Translations under genes and position numbers: made by a program
Assembly: GCA_040754335.1 (NCBI GenBank)
Contig: JBFMCV010000001.1
Location: 62,001 to 126,000 of the forward strand
Length of the DNA stretch: 64,000 nucleotides
From: Thermodesulfobacteriota bacterium
GTDB lineage: Bacteria > Desulfobacterota_D > UBA1144 > Nemesobacterales > UBA2774
Direction: 5' to 3'
Notes under the pieces: generated by a model
What the model was told of the DNA's origin: nothing
The model's database searches: none
Seen by the model: only the letters and a program-made list of their open reading frames with translations
Shown here: positions 2,499 to 34,909 of the stretch, in pieces
Layout of the letters: each line of letters begins with the position of its first letter
How positions within the stretch are numbered: position 1 is the first letter of the stretch

Positions 2499-3605
2499 TC
2501 AGTTGAGCGGCGCTACCTCGCAGAACACCTTGATCGCTCCCTTTGCGTCGGTGAGCGTGCTCATGAGCTCCTTGTAATTGTCGAGTCCTTTCACTGGATG
2601 TGTGAGGAATTTTGCAAGAAGCCCGGGCCACTCGTGCTCCGCGTGTGAGAGGTCCTTGACCCCCATCTCGAAGTACTCGCGGTTCGCGTTGACTGTGCCT
2701 ACGACCACCTTGTTCCCGAGGACGAACCCGAGGTTTATCATGTCGGCGGGAACCTCTATCTTGCGCTCGCCTCCTGTGACGCTCGACAGCACGAGCACGC
2801 CGTTTTTCCCGAGTATGTTCATCGCCTCGAACACTATGGGAGAAAAGCCCGTCGCCTCGAAGATAATGTCGAACGGACCGTGAATTTCGGAGGCTTCCAT
2901 CAGGTTTATATTGTCCGTGCTGTGGTAGCAGGCGCCCATCTCCTCGATGAGGTCCGAGTTTAGATACGGCGGCTTCGTCCTGCCGAACGTATGCACCTGC
3001 ATCCCTCTAAGCCTGAGAGCCATCGTGGCGAGGAGCCCGATCGTACCCGCTCCCAGAACCGCCGCACGCCTCGGATGCCATACACGCAGGCGTCTCTGTA
3101 TCTCGTATGCCTGGGCTATGCCTTTTTCGATGACGCTCGCGGGTTCCAGCAGCACGCCGTACTCTTTGAGACCCCGGGGCACTTTTACGAGGTATTCGGG
3201 CTCGTCGACGTAATATTCGGTCAGGAATCCGTGCAGGAGATTGATGCCGTGCTCGAAATAGCTGTCGTCGGTCGTCGTATCGTACTTGCCTATCTTGTCG
3301 TATATGCTCCCGCCGGGTCTTCTGACCGTTGCGGTGACGTAATCGCCGGGAACGAACTCCGTCACGTTCTTCCCCACTTCTTCGACAATTCCGAAGCTCT
3401 CGTGCCCGATCACCAGGAAATCGTATCCCGAAGGAGCGGCCCCGTACTCGGCGGCGTTTATCTCCTTATCCGTCCCGTCCACGCCCACGCGGAGCACCCT
3501 CACGAGCACACCTCGCCCGTCAGGGACTACGTTGATGTCAGGTTTCGGCAGCTCGGTTAGGTGCACGCTGCCCGGCTTGCCCGGGATGACTGCTATCGCT
3601 TTCAT
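2499..3605 (-). CDS. Glucose 1-dehydrogenase-like medium-chain dehydrogenase (archaeal type)
   Basis: 368 residues, a zinc-dependent medium-chain dehydrogenase of the archaeal glucose dehydrogenase group: it would oxidise an aldose to the lactone with NAD(P)+. Visible are GVDGTDKE (Asp43 where most family members have the zinc-ligand Cys), GHE (His68, Glu69), [11 protein letters not shown] (Glu154) and the Rossmann motif GAGTIG (185-190). Asp in the catalytic zinc site is known from the Haloferax mediterranei enzyme. The structural-zinc lobe (about 93-120, [15 protein letters not shown]) has no cysteines. AAGGAG lies 9 nt before the ATG. The aquaporin gene follows by 20 nt, hinting at small polyol or sugar metabolism. 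Exact substrate is uncertain. Confidence 0.85.
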
Positions 3606-5789: not shown

Positions 5790-6057
5790 AACCGATCTCT
5801 CACGCAGACTGATGTTCATGAGTGGTAGACAGGCTCTTGTATATCCCGTTTCTAACATTTGAAAGCATTCAAAAGATTACCCAAACCGGGAGAAGATTCG
5901 AATTAAAAGAGGATTTTTGTAAGTATCAGTGGGAGATAGTTTTAATGATAAGCGCCGGATTCAAGTTATTTGCTTCGGCAGGAGCTTCGGATTTTTTTGG
6001 CTGTATATTTTGTCAACGGTGAGAAATCCAATTCAACGACCGATTAAAGGAGGAATC

Positions 6058-6741
6058 ATGAGCGTTCGTAGTTTCATGATGGCTTTATTCTCATTATTGT
6101 TATTTTCGGCGACCTCAGCGCCGTTGCAGTCGAGCGCCGAAGTACTCTGCTCGAACAAGAAAAGCGGAATCGTAAAGATCCGCCCCGAAGAATGCAAGTC
6201 CAACGAGAATGTGGTCGATCTGAGCGGCATCGCCCAGGCCCCTGGGGTCAAGCCCCCGCGGTGGAGGTGGCTCGGTGAGGGGGAGGGTACCTACTGGTAC
6301 GTACCAAACGCGAACCTGCCCGCAGTCGAATGGGATACTTCCGACCCTGTGAACTATTCGCCTGTCATGGACCAGACCGTCTGGCACATAGAGCATTATG
6401 AGGACGGATATTTCTTCGGCACCGTAGTCGCGCAGATAGGGATGCATCCGCCGCAGTGTCAGTACCTGATAGGCTCGGTAACGCCGAACGGCAGTGTCTA
6501 TATTAGCTTCAATTCTCTCACCGATCCGCCGGTAGGCTCGCCTTCGCTTACAACAGGGACAGGGAAAATGGTGCTTAAGGGGAATGACTGGACTTTCAAC
6601 ATGCAGATGGCTTCGGGCTCCTCTTCAAACCAGGTCACTCACTGGGCATTTATGCTCGAATGTACGCCGGATGAGGAATGCTGGACGGACTTGCCGGGGA
6701 TACAGCAAAGCCTGCCCGATTTCCTTTCCAACTGCGATTAA
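6058..6741 (+). CDS. Secreted protein of unknown function, copy 1 of a tandem pair
   Basis: 227 residues with a signal peptide (about 1-27, ending SSAE) and an extracytoplasmic body. It opens with LCSNKKSGIVKIRPEECKSN, a short Cys-x-Cys module (C.kk.G.vkiR..eC) that recurs at the N-termini of many bacterial surface and collagen-like proteins. A proline/tryptophan linker (PRWRWLGEGEGTYWYVP) and a larger unassigned domain with four cysteines (QCQYLIG, ECTPDEECW) and a terminal NCD follow. The start has a near-perfect ribosome site (AAAGGAGG, 4 nt from ATG); the longer frame from 5929 is rejected. The next gene, 11 nt on, is a close paralogue with the same architecture. Confidence 0.85.
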   Translation: MSVRSFMMALFSLLLFSATSAPLQSSAEVLCSNKKSGIVKIRPEECKSNENVVDLSGIAQAPGVKPPRWRWLGEGEGTYWYVPNANLPAVEWDTSDPVNYSPVMDQTVWHIEHYEDGYFFGTVVAQIGMHPPQCQYLIGSVTPNGSVYISFNSLTDPPVGSPSLTTGTGKMVLKGNDWTFNMQMASGSSSNQVTHWAFMLECTPDEECWTDLPGIQQSLPDFLSNCD

Positions 6742-6752
6742 GGGAGAAAATA

Positions 6753-7442
6753 ATGAGCGTTCGCAATTTCGTGCTGGTTTTATTTTCATTATCCTTACTT
6801 ACAGCAACATCGGCGCCGCTGTATTCGGATGCCGAGGTACTTTGTTCGAACAATAAGAGCGGAATCGTAAAGCTTCGTCCCGAGGAATGCGAGCCCAACG
6901 AGAGTGTCGTCGATCTGAGCGGTATCGCACAGGCCCCGGGAGTCAAGCCGCCCCGCTGGAGATGGATCGGAGAAGGGGAGGGCACCTACTGGTACGTACC
7001 GAATGCGAACCTGCCGGCGGTCGTATGGAATGCCTCCGATCCTATGAACTATTCACCTATCCCGGTCCAGACAGTCTGGCATATAGAGCATTATGAGGAC
7101 GGATATTTCTTCGGCACCGTAGTTCCGCAGTTCGGAGCATTTCCGCCGCAGTGTCAGTATATGATAGGTTCGGTGACTCCGAACGGCAGTGTCTATATCA
7201 GCTTCAATTCTCTCACCGATCCGCCCGCGGGGTCGCCATCGCTTACGACAGGAGTGGGGGAAATGGTGCTAAAAGGGGACGAATGGACTGTCAACATGCA
7301 GATGTCCTCCGGCTCCTCTTCCATACACATAACTCACTGGGCTTACATGCTCGAATGCACGCCCGATGAGGAATGCTGGACGGATTTGCCGGGAGTACAC
7401 GAGAGCCTGCCTGATTTCCTTGCCAACTGTGCTCAGGAATAG
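6753..7442 (+). CDS. Secreted protein of unknown function, copy 2 of a tandem pair
   Basis: 229 residues, similar to the preceding protein over its full length, including the signal peptide start (MSVRNF versus MSVRSF), the LCSNNKSGIVKLRPEECEPN module and the C-terminal block ECTPDEECWTDLPG. Differences cluster in the signal peptide and around residues 95-135 (WNASDPMNYSPIPVQ; VPQFGAFPP). This is a recent tandem duplication in which both copies have kept all cysteines, suggesting both are functional. AGGGAG precedes the ATG. It is probably co-transcribed with copy 1. No catalytic motif is recognisable; a cell-surface or secreted structural or binding role is the most that can be said. Confidence 0.85.
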   Translation: MSVRNFVLVLFSLSLLTATSAPLYSDAEVLCSNNKSGIVKLRPEECEPNESVVDLSGIAQAPGVKPPRWRWIGEGEGTYWYVPNANLPAVVWNASDPMNYSPIPVQTVWHIEHYEDGYFFGTVVPQFGAFPPQCQYMIGSVTPNGSVYISFNSLTDPPAGSPSLTTGVGEMVLKGDEWTVNMQMSSGSSSIHITHWAYMLECTPDEECWTDLPGVHESLPDFLANCAQE

Positions 7443-26902: not shown

Positions 26903-28858
26903 TTATTTCCCCGCCGAGTATTCGTGCACCGTGTCCACGAGCGCGAGCACGTTGTCTACAGGCGTTTTCGGGAGTATGCCGTGGCCGAGGTTGAATATAT
27001 GTCCGGGCCTTCCCTCTGCCTTGTCGAGTATCTCCTCGGCTCTCTTCTTTATCTCGGAGTGTCCCGCATAGAGAACGACCGGGTCGAGGTTCCCCTGCAC
27101 CGCTACGTCGTAGCCGACCCTCTTCCAGGCCGACGCCAGGTCGACCCTCCAGTCGAGTCCGATGATGGAGCTCCCGCATTCCTTCATCATCTCGAGGAGA
27201 GCCGAAGTCCCTGTGCCGAAATATATCACGGGTACGCCTCTCCCGAGCGAGCCTATGAGCTTCGTCATGTGCGGCTGTACGAACTCTTTAAAATCGCCGG
27301 GCGACAGGCACCCGACCCAGCTGTCGAAAAGCTGAACGGCGTCCGAGCCCGACTCTATCTGTTTGTTCAGGTATCTGCCTGTGGCGTCCGTCAATATTTC
27401 CATGAGCGTGTGCCATGCGCCAGCGTCCTTGTACATGAGCTGCTTCGTGTTCTCGTAATTCCGCGAGCCCCCACCCTCTATGACGTAAGAGGCGATGGTA
27501 AAGGGCGCGCCCGCGAATCCGATAAGCGCCTTCTCCGGGTCAAGCGCACGGCGTGTTACGCTCACCGCGTCGTAAACGAATCTCATGCTCTCGGGGTTGA
27601 ATTCCCTCAAGCGTTCTATTGCGTTCCCCGAGCGCACGGGCCTCGGTATTCTGGGTCCTTCCGCCCTGGAGAACTCGAGATCCACTCCGAGCGGCTCGAT
27701 TATGAGCAGGATGTCCGAAAAAATTATTGCCGCGTCCACGCCGAGCCTGTCGACCGCGCTCAGGGTAACTTCCGCCGCGAGCTCGGGAGTTTTGCAGAGA
27801 TCGAGGAACGAAACCTTCGCCCGGAGCTCCCTGTATTCGCGCATGAACCTGCCCGCCTGGCGCATGAGCCAGACGGGCGTGTAGTCTGTCTTCTCCCTGC
27901 GGCACGCTTTCATGAACGCCGAGTTGTACGTTATATCTGTTCTCGTTTCTTTCTTATCCCCGTCCCAGACCATTTGAACGCGGTGCCAGCTGCTCGTGTC
28001 CACTCCGTTGCGGTGAGCTGTCCGTTTTTTCCTCAAGAGCTCGTTACCGCTCCTCGCCATCTCGCGTATAAGGTTCCCCATCTTGGGGCTGTCGGGTTCA
28101 TAGTCGGGGGAAAGGCCGAACCTCATGAGCGCTTCCGTCGTTGTCGGCCCTATGGAGCCTATAGCCACTTCTTTAAAACCCTCTTTGAGACTGTCCTCAA
28201 GCCCATCTTCTGAAGCTACCTTGAAGAGGTGGTAAATCTGTTGCGAGCTCGTAAAGAGGGATATATCCTCTTTTCTTTCCGAGATGGACCTTATAGCCTC
28301 GCGGAGCGGTTTCGTATCTTCGGGCAGGTCCCATTTATATACGGGGACCGCCGTCACGTAGGCGCCCCTTTGCTTTAGCTCCTTTAAGAATTCTTCGTTC
28401 GAGATTCCGTATTCCTGGACGGCGACGTTCTTGCCGCTGATCTCGAGTTCGCTGTCGAGAGTCGTAAGCACGTCGTGCCATGTGTTAGGCTCGGGGACAG
28501 TGATATCCGGTTTCAGTCCGAGCTCTCTGAGCGCGGCTACGGGCTTGGGGCCGCGTACGACGATGGTAGTGTCCTCCAGGGCTTTGACCAATTTATCGAG
28601 CGGATATCTGGTCGAGACCGCCTTGGCCAGCGCGCGCGTGCCCACTCCGGTCATAAGGATTACGATGTCGTATTTACCGGCGAAAAGTTTTTCAGCGAAT
28701 TTGAATACCTCGGTCGCTTCCTCAAACGGGACTTCCCTCATCGACGGGGCGACCCTGGGGACCCCCCCGTGATACTGTATCAGCTTCTCTATTTCCTGGG
28801 CTCTCCGGCTCTCAAACGCCGTGACCCTGAGTCCGTTGAAAGAAAAATTACTCGTCAT
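26903..28858 (-). CDS. hemDE: Fused uroporphyrinogen-III synthase / uroporphyrinogen decarboxylase (HemD-HemE)
   Basis: 651 residues combining two consecutive enzymes of haem synthesis. Residues about 1-285 are HemD-like: VTAFESRRAQEIEKLI, LMTGVGTRAL, DISLFTSSQQIYHLF, VAIGSIGPTTTEALMRFG. Residues about 305-651 are HemE: TPVWLMRQAGRFMREYRE (substrate-carboxylate Arg residues), FSDIL (catalytic Asp), GFAGAPFTIASYVIEGG, LFDSWVG and FNLGHGILPKTP. A lysine/arginine-rich linker joins them. Channelling of uroporphyrinogen III is plausible. There is no clear ribosome site, but a promoter-like sequence lies 27-54 nt upstream. hemH follows directly. Confidence 0.94.
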   Translation of the reverse strand: MTSNFSFNGLRVTAFESRRAQEIEKLIQYHGGVPRVAPSMREVPFEEATEVFKFAEKLFAGKYDIVILMTGVGTRALAKAVSTRYPLDKLVKALEDTTIVVRGPKPVAALRELGLKPDITVPEPNTWHDVLTTLDSELEISGKNVAVQEYGISNEEFLKELKQRGAYVTAVPVYKWDLPEDTKPLREAIRSISERKEDISLFTSSQQIYHLFKVASEDGLEDSLKEGFKEVAIGSIGPTTTEALMRFGLSPDYEPDSPKMGNLIREMARSGNELLRKKRTAHRNGVDTSSWHRVQMVWDGDKKETRTDITYNSAFMKACRREKTDYTPVWLMRQAGRFMREYRELRAKVSFLDLCKTPELAAEVTLSAVDRLGVDAAIIFSDILLIIEPLGVDLEFSRAEGPRIPRPVRSGNAIERLREFNPESMRFVYDAVSVTRRALDPEKALIGFAGAPFTIASYVIEGGGSRNYENTKQLMYKDAGAWHTLMEILTDATGRYLNKQIESGSDAVQLFDSWVGCLSPGDFKEFVQPHMTKLIGSLGRGVPVIYFGTGTSALLEMMKECGSSIIGLDWRVDLASAWKRVGYDVAVQGNLDPVVLYAGHSEIKKRAEEILDKAEGRPGHIFNLGHGILPKTPVDNVLALVDTVHEYSAGK

Positions 28859-29020: not shown

Positions 29021-29614
29021 ATGGGAAAGAAGGTCGAATTTTACTACGATTTCAGCAGCCCTTACACGTACATAGCCTCGACGAGGATAGAAAGGATATG
29101 CCGGGACAACGGGGCCGAGCTCGAATGGAAGCCCTTTTTGCTGGGCGGGCTCTTCAACGATACGGGAGTGAAACCCGCTGTAGAGATCGGCAACAAATTC
29201 GCGTATATAAAACAGGATACGCAGGATTCGGCGAAATATTACGGCGTCGATTTCAGATTCCCTGCAATTTTCCCCCTCAACTCCGTAAAGGCGATGAGAG
29301 GTGCTTTCGCCGCGGCGGAGAAGGGTAAGTTGGTCGAATACAACCACGAGATGTTCAGGCTGTACTGGACCGAAGGGAAAGACCTCAGCAAGGACGACGT
29401 GCTAAGGGAAGCGGTCGCCGGAATAGGCATCGACTCCGACTGGTTTATCGCGCGCATAGGGGAGCAGGAAATAAAAGACAGGCTCAGGATTGAGACCTCG
29501 AGCGCTGCTGCGCGGGGGGCTTTCGGTGCCCCCACAATATTCATCGGGGAAAAGATGTTCTGGGGGAACGACAGGCTCGATTTCGTGGACCGCTGGTTGA
29601 AGGGGAATTTGTGA
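29021..29614 (+). CDS. DsbA-fold 2-hydroxychromene-2-carboxylate isomerase-like protein, copy 1
   Basis: 197 residues of the DsbA/kappa-GST family: YYDFSSPYTYIASTRIERI at the N-terminus with Ser-Ser-Pro-Tyr in place of a CxxC motif, so no disulphide activity. A helical insert follows, then AAARGAFGAPTIFIGEKMFWGNDRLDFVDRWL with the cis-Pro loop. Related enzymes isomerise 2-hydroxychromene-2-carboxylate in aromatic degradation using glutathione; others are uncharacterised, and no aromatic-degradation genes are nearby. The next gene is a close paralogue, 45 nt on. Confidence 0.9.
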   Translation: MGKKVEFYYDFSSPYTYIASTRIERICRDNGAELEWKPFLLGGLFNDTGVKPAVEIGNKFAYIKQDTQDSAKYYGVDFRFPAIFPLNSVKAMRGAFAAAEKGKLVEYNHEMFRLYWTEGKDLSKDDVLREAVAGIGIDSDWFIARIGEQEIKDRLRIETSSAAARGAFGAPTIFIGEKMFWGNDRLDFVDRWLKGNL

Positions 29615-29659
29615 GCACTGCCCTGATAATCCTGCAATAACCGGTTCCGGAGAATAGCA

Positions 29660-30253
29660 ATGGGAAAGAAGGTTGAATTCTTTTACGATTTCACGAGTCC
29701 CTACACATATATTGCGTCTAAGAGGATAGAGAAGATATGTGAGGACAACGGGGCCGAGCTCGAATGGAAGCCCTTTTTCATGGGCGGCCTCTTCGTTGAA
29801 ACGGGCGTTAAAGCGCCAGTCGATATCGCCAACAAATTCGCGTACGTAAAGCAGGACACGCGGGACCTGGCGAAACACTACGGCGTCGACTTTAAATTTC
29901 CCGCGGTTTTTCCTCTCCACAGCGTAAAACCGATGCGGGGGGCTTTCGCCGCGGAGGAAAAGGGGAAATTGACGGAGTATACGCATGAAATGTTCAGGCT
30001 GTTCTGGACGGAGGGCAAAGACCTCAGCAAGGACGACGCGCTCATAGAAGCGGTCGCCGGCATAGGAATCGACCCCGTGTGGTTTATCGCACGCATAGGG
30101 GAGCAGGAGCTAAAAGACAGGCTCAGGGAGGAGACCTCGAAGGCGGCCGAGCGCGGGGTGTTCGGCGCCCCGACCATATTCGTCGGCGAGAAGATGTTCT
30201 GGGGTAACGACAGGCTCGGTTTCGTGGACGAATATTTGAAGGGGAAACTGTAG
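29660..30253 (+). CDS. DsbA-fold 2-hydroxychromene-2-carboxylate isomerase-like protein, copy 2
   Basis: 197 residues, aligning without gaps to copy 1 and strongly similar throughout (YDFTSPYTYIASKRIEKI; NGAELEWKPFFMGGLF; GVFGAPTIFVGEKMFWGNDRLGFVDEYL). The active-site Ser-Pro-Tyr is kept, with Thr instead of Ser before it. CGGAGAA precedes the ATG. The pair is a tandem duplication under the promoter at 28959; equal lengths and intact motifs suggest both are used, perhaps as a heterodimer since the family is dimeric (inference). Confidence 0.9.
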   Translation: MGKKVEFFYDFTSPYTYIASKRIEKICEDNGAELEWKPFFMGGLFVETGVKAPVDIANKFAYVKQDTRDLAKHYGVDFKFPAVFPLHSVKPMRGAFAAEEKGKLTEYTHEMFRLFWTEGKDLSKDDALIEAVAGIGIDPVWFIARIGEQELKDRLREETSKAAERGVFGAPTIFVGEKMFWGNDRLGFVDEYLKGKL

Positions 30254-30366: not shown

Positions 30367-31623
30367 ATGCACCATTCCTATCGATACAGGGACGGCGAGC
30401 TCTATGTCGAGGACGTCCCCGCAAGAATGATCGCGGAAGCCGTCGGGACCCCGTGTTATGTGTACAGCTGCTCGGTGTTGAGGGACGCGTTCCTTAGCTA
30501 CAAGGACGCATTCTCCGGTATCGATCCGCTCATGTGCTATTCGGTGAAGGCGAATTCCAACCTCGCGGTCCTGAACGCGTTCGCGAGGCTCGGGGCCGGG
30601 TTCGATATCGTTTCTCTGGGCGAGCTCATAAGGGTCAAGCGCGCGGGGGGCGATCCGTCGAAGGTCGTATTTTCGGGAGTGGGCAAGACCGAAGAAGAGA
30701 TGAGGGTCGCGATCGAAGCGGGGATACTCTTTTTCAACGTCGAGTCCGTCGAGGAGCTCCGACTCCTCGACAAAGTGGGGAAAGAGCTCGGCAGGAAAGC
30801 GCCCGTCGCTCTCCGCGTCAACCCGGACATAGACCCGAAGACGCACCCCTATATATCGACCGGCTTCAAGAAGAGCAAGTTCGGCATCGAGATTGGACAG
30901 GCGGTAGAAGTCTACGAGGAAGCGAGCACTATGGAGGGCGTCAGGGTAACCGCTATCGACGCTCACATCGGCTCCCAGATATTCGAGCTCGCTCCGTTCG
31001 TCGATTCGTTAAGGAAGCTCGTGGACCTGGCCGACGGTCTCGTAGGCAAAGGCATCGGTATCGAATACATAGACATCGGAGGCGGCCTCGGGATAAGCTA
31101 CAAGATGGACGAGATACCTCCTCACCCGAAGGAGTATGCGGATGTGATTACGGGCCTCGTCGGTGGCAAGCCGTATAAGCTCGTGCTCGAGCCCGGGAGG
31201 TCGCTCGTGGGAAACGCCGGCATACTCGTGACAAAGGTCTTATTCCTGAAGGAAGGTACTGAAAAGAAATTCGTTATAGTCGACGCGGCGATGAACGACT
31301 TGATCCGTCCCGCGTTCTACGAGTCGTACCACGAGATACTGACCGTGAGCGGCCCGGCAAAGGCCGTAGAAAAAGTGGATGTCGTCGGCCCTATATGCGA
31401 GTCGGGCGACTTCCTCGCGAAGGACAGGAAATTCCCCCATGTAAAGAGCGGCGACCTGCTTACTGTGATGAGCGCAGGCGCCTACGGCTTCGTCATGTCG
31501 TCCAACTACAACACGCGGCCGCGCGTACCGGAAGTCCTCGTAAAAGGCGGCGAGTTCCGGATAGTCAGGAAGAGGGAGACCTACGACGAGATGCTCGGCG
31601 GGGAATCGATCCCCGACTTTTGA
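30367..31623 (+). CDS. lysA: Diaminopimelate decarboxylase
   Basis: 418 residues. It makes L-lysine from meso-diaminopimelate with PLP. Lys61 in CYSVKANSN forms the Schiff base. Other conserved sites are HIGSQI, DIGGGLGISY, LEPGRSLVGNAGILVTKV, GPICESGDFLAKDR (Cys of the facing subunit) and SAGAYGFVMSSNYNTRPR. AAGGAG lies about 10 nt before the ATG. Its last 100 nt recur as a degenerate remnant at 33191-33289, on the far side of the following acyl-CoA ligase gene. Confidence 0.97.
   Translation: MHHSYRYRDGELYVEDVPARMIAEAVGTPCYVYSCSVLRDAFLSYKDAFSGIDPLMCYSVKANSNLAVLNAFARLGAGFDIVSLGELIRVKRAGGDPSKVVFSGVGKTEEEMRVAIEAGILFFNVESVEELRLLDKVGKELGRKAPVALRVNPDIDPKTHPYISTGFKKSKFGIEIGQAVEVYEEASTMEGVRVTAIDAHIGSQIFELAPFVDSLRKLVDLADGLVGKGIGIEYIDIGGGLGISYKMDEIPPHPKEYADVITGLVGGKPYKLVLEPGRSLVGNAGILVTKVLFLKEGTEKKFVIVDAAMNDLIRPAFYESYHEILTVSGPAKAVEKVDVVGPICESGDFLAKDRKFPHVKSGDLLTVMSAGAYGFVMSSNYNTRPRVPEVLVKGGEFRIVRKRETYDEMLGGESIPDF
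31565..31595 (+). repeat. 31-bp direct repeat, copy in lysA
   Basis: A perfect 31-bp match to 33228-33258. It encodes RKRETYDEML near the lysA C-terminus. Flanking sequence on both sides also resembles the second copy but with mismatches. Confidence 0.95.
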
Positions 31624-31647
31624 TCTGGGGACGTAAAGGGGGCTTGA

Positions 31648-33180
31648 ATGATATTAGGCCGCTTATATGAAAGTCATTTAAAATCAAACCCGGAGAAAAC
31701 GGCGGTGTTCTTCCGGGGGAATTCATATACGTATGCGGACCTGGACAGATACGCGAATGACTCGGTCAATGCGCTTCTCGGCATTGGTATCGGCAAGGGA
31801 GACAGGGTCGCGTTGTTTATGCGTAACTGCACTGAGCTGATCGGGCTTTACTTCGCATGTTTTAAGATAGGCGCTATCGCCGTTCCGCTCAACAACCGTT
31901 ATGTGAAGGATGAGGTCGTATATGCGGTAAACCAGTGCGCAGCCGGGGTTTTGATAGCCGATTGCGGGCTCTATCCGAGAGTGGAGGGAATAGGGAGCAG
32001 CGCGCCGTCCGTTAAACGCATGTTTACAATAGGGGAATTTCCGGGCGGCGGCGTCCGCTCATGGGAAAGCGTCGTTAGCAGCTCACCTGTGAAAGAGGAG
32101 CGGCCTCACGTGAATTATGACGATACGGCGATGATTTTTTACACCTCGGGGAGCACAAGCAAGCCCAAAGGCGTAACGCATACTCATAAAGCGCTCTTCA
32201 GTCTTAGCAAGAGCCGTAGCATAACTCAGGAGCTTGCAGCAGATGATATAGGGCTCGTCGTGACAGCGGTCTGTCATCTCGGCGGGTCCGGCGGATTATG
32301 CTTTCCGCTTCTTTATGCCGGAGGGTCGGTAGTAATCATGGAGGGGCCTGACCCTGCGCTTTTTCTCAAATACGTCGAGACATACCGTCCGACACGCACT
32401 CTTTTACTCCCCGCACAACTGATCGATGTGATGGACCATCCGAAGTCGGGAAAGGTCGATTTTGGATGTTTCAAGGAGGTCGAATGCGGTGGGGACTATA
32501 TAGCCAGCGACCTTTACGAGCGCTTCAGTGCGGTCACCGGCTTTGAGCTCAATCAGTTATACGGGCTCACCGAATGTGAAGGCGCTTGTTTCACTCCTCC
32601 CCGCCTGCCGGTCAAGCGCGGATCGATCGGAGTGCCGAGAGACGGGGTTGAAGTATGCCTTGTCGATCATGACGGCCGCGAAGCGGGGATTGGGGAAGCG
32701 GGGGAAATCCGGATAAAGAGCGACAGCACCATGTCCGGTTACTGGAATGACGAAGAAAACACATCGCTGGCGCTACGGGACGGATACCTTTTGACCGGAG
32801 ACATAGGCAAAAGGGATGAATCGGGATACTACTACTATCTGGGCCGCATCAAGGAGATTATCATCAAGGGCGGCTCCAATGTGTCGCCCGGAGAGGTCGA
32901 GGAGGTGCTGGACGACCATCCGGACGTTACGTTGAGCGGAGTGGTCGGAGTGCCCGACAAACACTACGGCCAGCTGATACATGCTTTTATAGAGCTGAAG
33001 TCGGGCTTGAAAGACGCCCCCGATGAGGCGGCGTTTAAGTCATACGCATCGGAAAAGCTTGCCGCCTACAAGGTCCCCGACTACTGGACATTCGTAGATA
33101 GTTTGCCCCGGAACGAGGTGGGGAAAATTGACCGGAGAGGACTTCATGCACTCGCGGGAAAACTGGATGCTTCGAGCTAG
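31648..33180 (+). CDS. Acyl-CoA synthetase (AMP-forming), ANL family
   Basis: 510 residues. It activates a carboxylic acid via an acyl-adenylate to the CoA thioester. Motifs: YTSGSTSKPKG (phosphate loop), LYGLTECEG, GYLLTGDIGKRDESG, GRIKEIIIKGGSNVSPGEVE (hinge) and NEVGKIDR (catalytic Lys near the C-terminus). The acid is unknown; fatty or aromatic is likely. AAAGGGGG precedes the ATG, 24 nt after lysA. Codon choice looks more A/T-tolerant than in lysA, and the gene is followed at once by a lysA-tail remnant, so it appears to be an insertion behind lysA. Confidence 0.93.
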   Translation: MILGRLYESHLKSNPEKTAVFFRGNSYTYADLDRYANDSVNALLGIGIGKGDRVALFMRNCTELIGLYFACFKIGAIAVPLNNRYVKDEVVYAVNQCAAGVLIADCGLYPRVEGIGSSAPSVKRMFTIGEFPGGGVRSWESVVSSSPVKEERPHVNYDDTAMIFYTSGSTSKPKGVTHTHKALFSLSKSRSITQELAADDIGLVVTAVCHLGGSGGLCFPLLYAGGSVVIMEGPDPALFLKYVETYRPTRTLLLPAQLIDVMDHPKSGKVDFGCFKEVECGGDYIASDLYERFSAVTGFELNQLYGLTECEGACFTPPRLPVKRGSIGVPRDGVEVCLVDHDGREAGIGEAGEIRIKSDSTMSGYWNDEENTSLALRDGYLLTGDIGKRDESGYYYYLGRIKEIIIKGGSNVSPGEVEEVLDDHPDVTLSGVVGVPDKHYGQLIHAFIELKSGLKDAPDEAAFKSYASEKLAAYKVPDYWTFVDSLPRNEVGKIDRRGLHALAGKLDASS

Positions 33181-33190
33181 AAACCCGATT

Positions 33191-33289
33191 CCCGAAGTCC
33201 CCGCAAATGGTGGCGGGTTCCGGGCAATCAGGAAGAGGGAGACCTACGACGAGATGCTGAGCCTGGAATCTATACCCGAATTTGACTAA
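33191..33289 (+). pseudogene. Remnant of a lysA 3' end
   Basis: An open 33-codon stretch translating as PEVPANGGGFRAIRKRETY, then DEMLSLESIPEFD and a stop. It aligns with the lysA C-terminus (PEVLVKGGEFRIVRKRETY, DEMLGGESIPDF, stop). There is no start codon or ribosome site. It begins 10 nt after the acyl-CoA ligase stop. At DNA level a 31-bp core is identical to lysA and the flanks have diverged, as expected for the tail of a second or displaced lysA allele. Confidence 0.88.
33228..33258 (+). repeat. 31-bp direct repeat, copy in the lysA remnant
   Basis: Identical to 31565-31595; the two copies are 1663 bp apart and bracket the end of lysA plus the whole acyl-CoA ligase gene. Confidence 0.95.
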
Positions 33290-33448: not shown

Positions 33449-33688
33449 TTAGATGCTGCCGTTAACGTCGATGAGCTTCTCGGCTTCCTGTATCACTTCT
33501 CCAAGCCTCTCTTTAAAGAGGTTGATTCCACCGAGTGGGATTACTATGCAGGACCTGCCCCCGCTGAGCTCCGTTATCCTGAGATATTTGCCTTTGTGAT
33601 TTTCTTTCACGTCGAAGAAGAAGCGCTTCGATTCGATATCGACGTGCTTGCTCGCATGTTCCTTCTCGTCTTTCTCAAGTCTGTCCAT
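33449..33688 (-). CDS. PUR-domain (PUR-alpha/DUF3276-like) nucleic-acid-binding protein
   Basis: 79 residues, one PUR repeat: VDIESKRFFFDVKENHKGKYLRITEL, then GGRSCIVIPLGGINLFKERLGEVIQEA. Bacterial relatives such as Borrelia BpuR dimerise and bind single-stranded nucleic acids and mRNA, repressing translation. GGAGG lies 10 nt before the ATG. It is a single gene convergent with the lysA remnant region. Confidence 0.87.
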   Translation of the reverse strand: MDRLEKDEKEHASKHVDIESKRFFFDVKENHKGKYLRITELSGGRSCIVIPLGGINLFKERLGEVIQEAEKLIDVNGSI

Positions 33689-33859: not shown

Positions 33860-34909
33860 GTGGGCGGAAACATAAAATTCGGTATCGCGGCGCCTGTTCC
33901 GGGCGAGTCGGTCGAAGGTCTGATCGAGTTCACGAAGTCCGCGGAGGACGCCGGATTCGACACGGTCTGGTTCCCTGACCATATCGTATTCATGGCACCG
34001 AGGATCACGCCCGAGGTCTGGTCTGTCGTGACCGCAGCCGCCGTGAAGACCGGAAGAATAAAAATGGGAACGGTCGGCGACGCCCACAGGATGCACCCTG
34101 CCGTGTTCGCCCACCGTCTCGCGACCGTGGACAGGATTTCGAACGGGAGGATTTTCGTTTGCGTCGGGTACGGGGAGAAGATGAACCTCGACCCATACGG
34201 CATAGCGTGGGATAGTCCGCTCACGCGCGTCGAGGAATCGATAAAGATCATGCGCTCTCTCTGGAGCGGGGGGCCCGTGAATTTCGACGGGGAGATATAC
34301 AGGCTCAGGGACGCCGAGCTCAGGATAGAGCCCGTGAATGACAAGCGGGTCCCGATATACGTAGCCGCGACCGGGCCGAGGGCGCTGAGAGTCGCGGGGA
34401 AATACGGGGACGGATGGGTGACGAACGCAATGCCGCCGAGGCTCTTCGCCGAGAAGGCGAGGGCGGTCGCGGATGCGGCGCGGGAAAGGGAGGACGGCTC
34501 GTCAGGCCCCGAGAAGACGCTTTACATCTTCACCTCGATTGCGGGGGACAAGGACGAGGCCTACAAATCGCTCGAGCCCATAAAGCACGCGCTCATATGG
34601 CCCGAGCTCCTCGCACAGGCCGGTTACGATATCAAGATCGGCGACGAATATAAAGGGCTCGAATACACGAAGATCATGCCCAACGATACCGTGATGCTGA
34701 AGAAATTCAGGGAGATGGGCGATAAGTATTATTCCCGCGACATCGTATTCGATTTCGTAGCCGCAGGCTCAAAGAGTGACGTAATAAAGAGACTCGAAGA
34801 ATATGCAGGCGCGGGCGTCGATCATTTCATACTGAGAGACTTCAGCCCGGACAGACAGCTTTCGATGAACGTTCTCTCCGGGGAGATTATGCCCTATTTC
34901 AGAGGGTGA
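33860..34909 (+). CDS. LLM-class flavin/F420-dependent oxidoreductase
   Basis: 349 residues, luciferase-like TIM barrel: KFGIAAPVPGESVEGLIEFTKSAEDAGFDTVWFPDHIVFM, HPAVFAHRLATVDRISNGR, ESIKIMRSLWSGGPVNFDG, VPIYVAATGPRALRVAGKYGDGWVTN. The N-terminal pattern is closer to F420-dependent methylene-H4MPT reductase-like and phthiodiolone-type members than to alkanal monooxygenases, but the cofactor cannot be fixed. The start is the GTG at 33860, with AAGGGGG about 10 nt upstream; the frame opens earlier from a TTG at 33812. Confidence 0.87.
   Translation: MGGNIKFGIAAPVPGESVEGLIEFTKSAEDAGFDTVWFPDHIVFMAPRITPEVWSVVTAAAVKTGRIKMGTVGDAHRMHPAVFAHRLATVDRISNGRIFVCVGYGEKMNLDPYGIAWDSPLTRVEESIKIMRSLWSGGPVNFDGEIYRLRDAELRIEPVNDKRVPIYVAATGPRALRVAGKYGDGWVTNAMPPRLFAEKARAVADAAREREDGSSGPEKTLYIFTSIAGDKDEAYKSLEPIKHALIWPELLAQAGYDIKIGDEYKGLEYTKIMPNDTVMLKKFREMGDKYYSRDIVFDFVAAGSKSDVIKRLEEYAGAGVDHFILRDFSPDRQLSMNVLSGEIMPYFRG

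Follow-up and report, generated by a model that had tools for sequence, protein, structure and literature searches.

Integrative elements can insert at the 3' ends of protein-coding genes, as e14 and phage 21 do at icd. In these cases the insert restores the 3' end of the host gene and the old end is displaced. Among Lac- clones obtained by conjugation in E. coli, the majority carried a partial lacZ duplication; the duplications measured 109-950 bp in 14 sequenced clones and were ascribed to a single crossover of a circle carrying a gene end (PMC3240628). Displaced 3' ends have also been described in T6SS effector-immunity arrays and Rhs loci of Vibrio cholerae, for which homology-facilitated illegitimate recombination was proposed (PMC5361080).

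We analysed a locus in a Thermodesulfobacteriota genome in which an acyl-CoA ligase gene is wedged between an intact lysA and a second lysA end. The window, i.e., the whole stretch of DNA analysed, is 64,000 nt long. The locus resembles the lacZ case (PMC3240628) in its succession of gene, insert and second homologous gene end, with duplicated stretches of some 100 bp or longer; here, however, the event is historical, the copies have diverged by 17%, the host gene is intact and the incoming molecule is one that we infer. With the Vibrio loci (PMC5361080) it appears to share a homology-anchored incoming module and the downstream displacement of the previous 3' part. In Vibrio the replacing 3' part has a different function and the events recur, whereas here lysA function is kept and the event is single. 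Like the icd elements, the insert appears to restore the 3' end of its host gene with the old end displaced, but no integrase is found in it.

The lysA-ligase locus and its ancestral arrangement

The features of the locus are as follows:

30367..31623, + strand, lysA, diaminopimelate decarboxylase, 418 aa, intact (TIGR01048 equivalog match)
31528..31620, + strand, functional lysA 3' end, partner of the remnant, direct repeat D1 (83% repeat identity)
31565..31595, + strand, 31-nt perfect run, copy 1, in lysA
31624..31647, + strand, 24-nt spacer with the ribosome-binding-like AAAGGGGG, 5' of the ligase (from sequence)
31648..33180, + strand, AMP-binding acyl-CoA ligase, 510 aa, complete, the inserted gene (PF00501 and PF13193)
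33191..33289, + strand, remnant of a lysA 3' end (~33 codons), relaxed and decaying, occupying the position of the former resident lysA end
33228..33258, + strand, 31-nt perfect run, copy 2, in the remnant
33449..33688, - strand, PurA-like (PF04845) gene, resident, to the right of lysA also in relatives (Pfam and synteny)
33860..34909, + strand, LLM-type oxidoreductase, resident right-hand neighbour (named by eye from sequence; synteny in G003, G002, G006, G012 and G004)

An intact lysA, a ligase start 24 nt later and a remnant behind the ligase stop had been described in a sequence-only reading of this DNA, and both coordinates and layout were found to be correct in the sequence and its open reading frames. 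The lysA product matches TIGR01048 over its full length (residues 7-411) with 523 bits, above the curated cutoff of 298, and is accordingly a member of this family. lysA has host-type codons and is 91% identical to its counterpart in G003 and 89% to that in G002.

The same reading had proposed a comparison of lysA 3' regions in close relatives. Twelve genes of the window were mapped onto the lysA regions of the congeners (G003 and G002) and of three other genomes of the same family (G006, G012 and G004). The order hemH, hemDE, dsbA, lysA, purA-like gene (opposite strand), LLM oxidoreductase was found in G006, G012 and G004, and also in G003 and G002 as far as their contigs reach. The ligase is absent from the lysA locus in all five relatives, which thus display the empty site. 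G001, of the same genus, is uninformative because neither lysA nor the remnant locus was detectable in it. In G006 the interval between lysA and the purA-like gene is altered as well (L062): it contains about 1.3 kb of additional sequence, in which there are small unassigned ORFs and no lysA remnant.

Between the start of the remnant and the purA-like gene lie 258 nt; in the congeners, the matching point of lysA is 262 nt (G002) and 269 nt (G003) away from this gene. In a BLAST comparison with G002, the remnant, spacer, purA-like gene and LLM gene fall in one continuous alignment. Spacing and alignment together therefore place the remnant where the old resident lysA end was. The intergenic stretch to the right of the remnant aligns poorly with the congeners (45-49%) and is too diverged for dating the event, so that the continuity rests on the spacing and on both ends. 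By this comparison, the added DNA amounts to ~1.66 kb, consisting of a lysA 3' end and the intact ligase, and the ligase is an insertion into a conserved locus, recent when set against the divergence from the congeners sampled. The locus is a well-delimited case in which an accessory gene has come to follow a housekeeping gene of biosynthesis directly and has left it intact, and relatives preserve the ancestral state.

The inserted ligase and its probable origin

The ligase runs from an ATG at 31648, 24 nt past the lysA stop, to a TAG at 33178-33180, and its C-terminus lies within a few residues of the ends of its nearest relatives. Matches above the cutoffs to PF00501 (254 bits) and C-terminally to PF13193 (57 bits) assign it to the AMP-binding (ANL superfamily) acyl-CoA ligases. 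Its best NCBIfam match is, over the full length, to the PRK06187-like long-chain-fatty-acid-CoA ligases (NF004837), but the score of 409 bits is below the curated cutoff of 476 and the protein is not assigned to this subfamily. In the PDB it is closest, at modest scores, to fatty-acyl- and feruloyl-CoA synthetases. The 24-nt gap and the plausible ribosome-binding site suggest that the ligase probably rides on the lysA transcript.

Close kin of the ligase (60-61% identity) were found phylum-wide only in G028 and G034, which belong to another family of the same order (f4) and whose ligase proteins are 70% identical to each other. No kin above 35% was found within its own family, and a contig scan beyond the phylum returned relatives of 23-39% only, the best at 39%. 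Of the separate trees suggested earlier, those of the tail and the ligase were built. In the ligase tree the three proteins form one clade with support 100/99, separate from the PRK06187-like proteins. In both G028 and G034 the gene is sited away from lysA, with no convincing lysA-tail fragment near it.

The GC3 of the ligase is 61.8%, versus 65.0-77.5% for its neighbours in the window, and AGG, the main arginine codon in most neighbours, accounts for 2 of its 25 arginine codons. Because of this off-type codon composition and the restriction of its kin to G028 and G034, the data point to acquisition of the ligase, perhaps from within the phylum. Loss elsewhere combined with relocation could also account for its distribution, since an identity of 60% is close to that of resident genes between these two families (hemH 58%, lysA 67-69%).

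The lysA remnant and the 31-nt core

The remnant lies in a frame different from that of the ligase and terminates with TAA. As had been noted earlier, it aligns to the lysA C-terminus: the direct repeat spans 93 nt (31528-31620 and 33191-33283), of which 77 are identical (83%) and 16 mismatched, and it includes one perfect run of exactly 31 nt. A whole-genome search retrieved the remnant at E 7.7e-10 with a 37-aa lysA-tail query and at E 2.2e-7 with full lysA, so that chance does not explain the similarity. The pattern PEV...GG.FR..RKRETYDEML..ESIP.F is matched in register between lysA tail and remnant, so that the similarity is not that of a generic lysine/arginine run. A 29-nt core pattern with three mismatches allowed occurs at two sites only in the 3.26-Mb genome, in lysA and in the remnant. 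A second lysA tail was detected in the studied genome alone among 58 genomes of the phylum, and no relative has the remnant as part of a separate gene.

In the tail tree the branch of the remnant has about three times the length of the lysA-tail branch (0.20 vs. 0.06). The upstream part of the remnant alters residues that are nearly invariant in the functional lysA genes of the family (EVLVKG to EVPANG), and the downstream part retains the appearance of a lysA end. We conclude from these comparisons that the remnant is evidently the old lysA tail, freed from lysA-type constraint. Its loss of function probably postdates the divergence from the congeners sampled, because the adjoining intergenic DNA, at 45-49% identity to congeners, is far below the remnant. 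Two further candidates were rejected: leftward homology of the remnant past 33191 into the ligase end was unsupported in an anchored alignment, and scans for a terminator or promoter in the remnant gave results at chance level. An ATG at 33167 in the frame of the remnant overlaps the ligase end and gives a possible 40-codon ORF (33167-33289) with a lysA-like tail.

The 31-nt core was identical at 30 of 31 positions in the lysA genes of both congeners (G003, G002) and at 29 of 31 in that of G006, although whole-lysA identity between these genomes is only 72-87%. The core is the most conserved stretch of lysA in the clade and not peculiar to the repeat; almost any two lysA ends of the clade would therefore share it. 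A perfect run of 31 nt exceeds the expectation for 16 randomly placed mismatches (p 0.011), a value to be read with the post hoc choice of the run and the non-random placement of mismatches in a gene under constraint. The run is compatible with a crossover at this position and does not prove one; ordinary lysA conservation is the simpler cause.

The lysA body and tail were compared by pairwise identity in 93-nt steps instead of by lysA-body trees. Against G003 and G002, most steps gave 81-88% identity and the tail 86-89%; divergence was even along the gene, with no mosaic break. The tail tree cannot separate the five topologies considered (AU 0.25-0.69 for all) because the 93-nt tail has too few sites.

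How the ligase may have come to lie behind lysA

As the best mechanism we propose, with even confidence for and against, a Campbell-type single-crossover integration of DNA that brought in a lysA 3' end and the ligase. The incoming DNA, presumably circular, would have contained ~33 or more terminal codons of a lysA and, behind them, the ligase. A single crossover between the homologous lysA ends would integrate the circle, rebuild a full lysA upstream and leave downstream a truncated lysA end that begins where the incoming homology began; lysA to the right of the crossover and the remnant to the left of it would then be of donor origin. In agreement with such integration, the insert lies between direct repeats of a gene end, one gene copy is complete, and relatives have the empty site. 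Against it may be held the even lysA and the simpler cause of the 31-nt run; moreover, no donor in which this ligase follows lysA was found. The earlier proposal of recombination into the resident lysA through the core thus stands in part: synteny and spacing identify the remnant as the old tail and the lysA tail plus ligase as the added DNA, but the crossover need not have lain within the core itself, the core being equally conserved in insertion-free relatives and lysA showing no mosaic. The locus is an ordinary gene-gain scar left by a known kind of event; it gives no sign of a new mechanism and leaves the general picture unchanged.

The non-mosaic lysA with its host-type codons would be expected if a break at the lysA 3' end, staggered or re-replicated, had captured the ligase, leaving ~100 bp of resident lysA on both sides, of which the distal copy decayed. 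This target duplication requires no lysA-ligase donor, and many changes in the remnant affect conserved residues, as under neutral decay. A repeat of ~100 bp is, however, long for capture at a break, and an untouched run of 31 nt is unlikely under even decay (p 0.011) unless it arose by chance or gene conversion; we regard this explanation as possible, though rather unlikely.

Somewhat more doubtful is the second option of the sequence-only reading, in which most of the second lysA was lost from a lysA-ligase-lysA tandem; such an arrangement would have come from duplication. The anatomy agrees with it and a tandem duplication adjoins the locus (dsbA1/dsbA2, 80% identical, single in G003), but the intermediate was found in none of the 58 genomes and the deletion would need an endpoint no more than ~10 nt from the ligase stop.

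A dead site-specific element at the lysA 3' end with a replacement tail, like e14 and phage 21 at icd, would have rebuilt a full-length host gene and left the displaced 3' fragment on the far side, as seen here, and six integrase-domain (PF00589) matches occur elsewhere in the genome. We consider it improbable: the integrase would have to be lost, since the 1.66-kb insert holds the ligase alone and no integrase or other mobile gene, none of the six matches lies within the window, and no other of the 58 phylum genomes has a displaced lysA tail. Import of dsbA2, lysA and ligase as one block from a sister lineage, with replacement of the resident lysA except its tail, would account for both the extra dsbA and the remnant; it is very improbable, as lysA has diverged from G003 to the same extent as the resident LLM gene (84.9 vs. 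84.3%) and the dsbA tree gives dsbA2 no firm placement (AU 0.68 vs. 0.32). Least credible of all is that a small, undescribed mobile unit made up of a lysA tail and a cargo gene recombines in the conserved core and uses the lysA 3' end for attachment, this locus being one occupied site, or that the remnant is expressed from the ATG at 33167 as a ~40-aa LysA-tail peptide.

Several other features of the window and one of G002 were observed. The two tandem dsbA-like genes at 29021-30253 encode 197 aa each, are 80% identical and correspond to a single gene in G003, G006, G012 and G004; the second could be either a lineage-internal duplicate or older. In G002, the frame of dsbA (L094, G002:C46, near 2605-3096) stays open but passes at about codon 165 into an unrelated coding sequence rich in G+C, which is probably a chimeric join of the G002 assembly. 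At 26903-28858 on the - strand, a single gene encodes a 651-aa fusion of uroporphyrinogen-III synthase (HemD, PF02602) with uroporphyrinogen decarboxylase (HemE, PF01208), which is matched end to end in G003, G006, G012 and G004. Finally, two similar tandem ORFs of 270 and 254 aa are located at 5929-7442, the first of them without a Pfam match.
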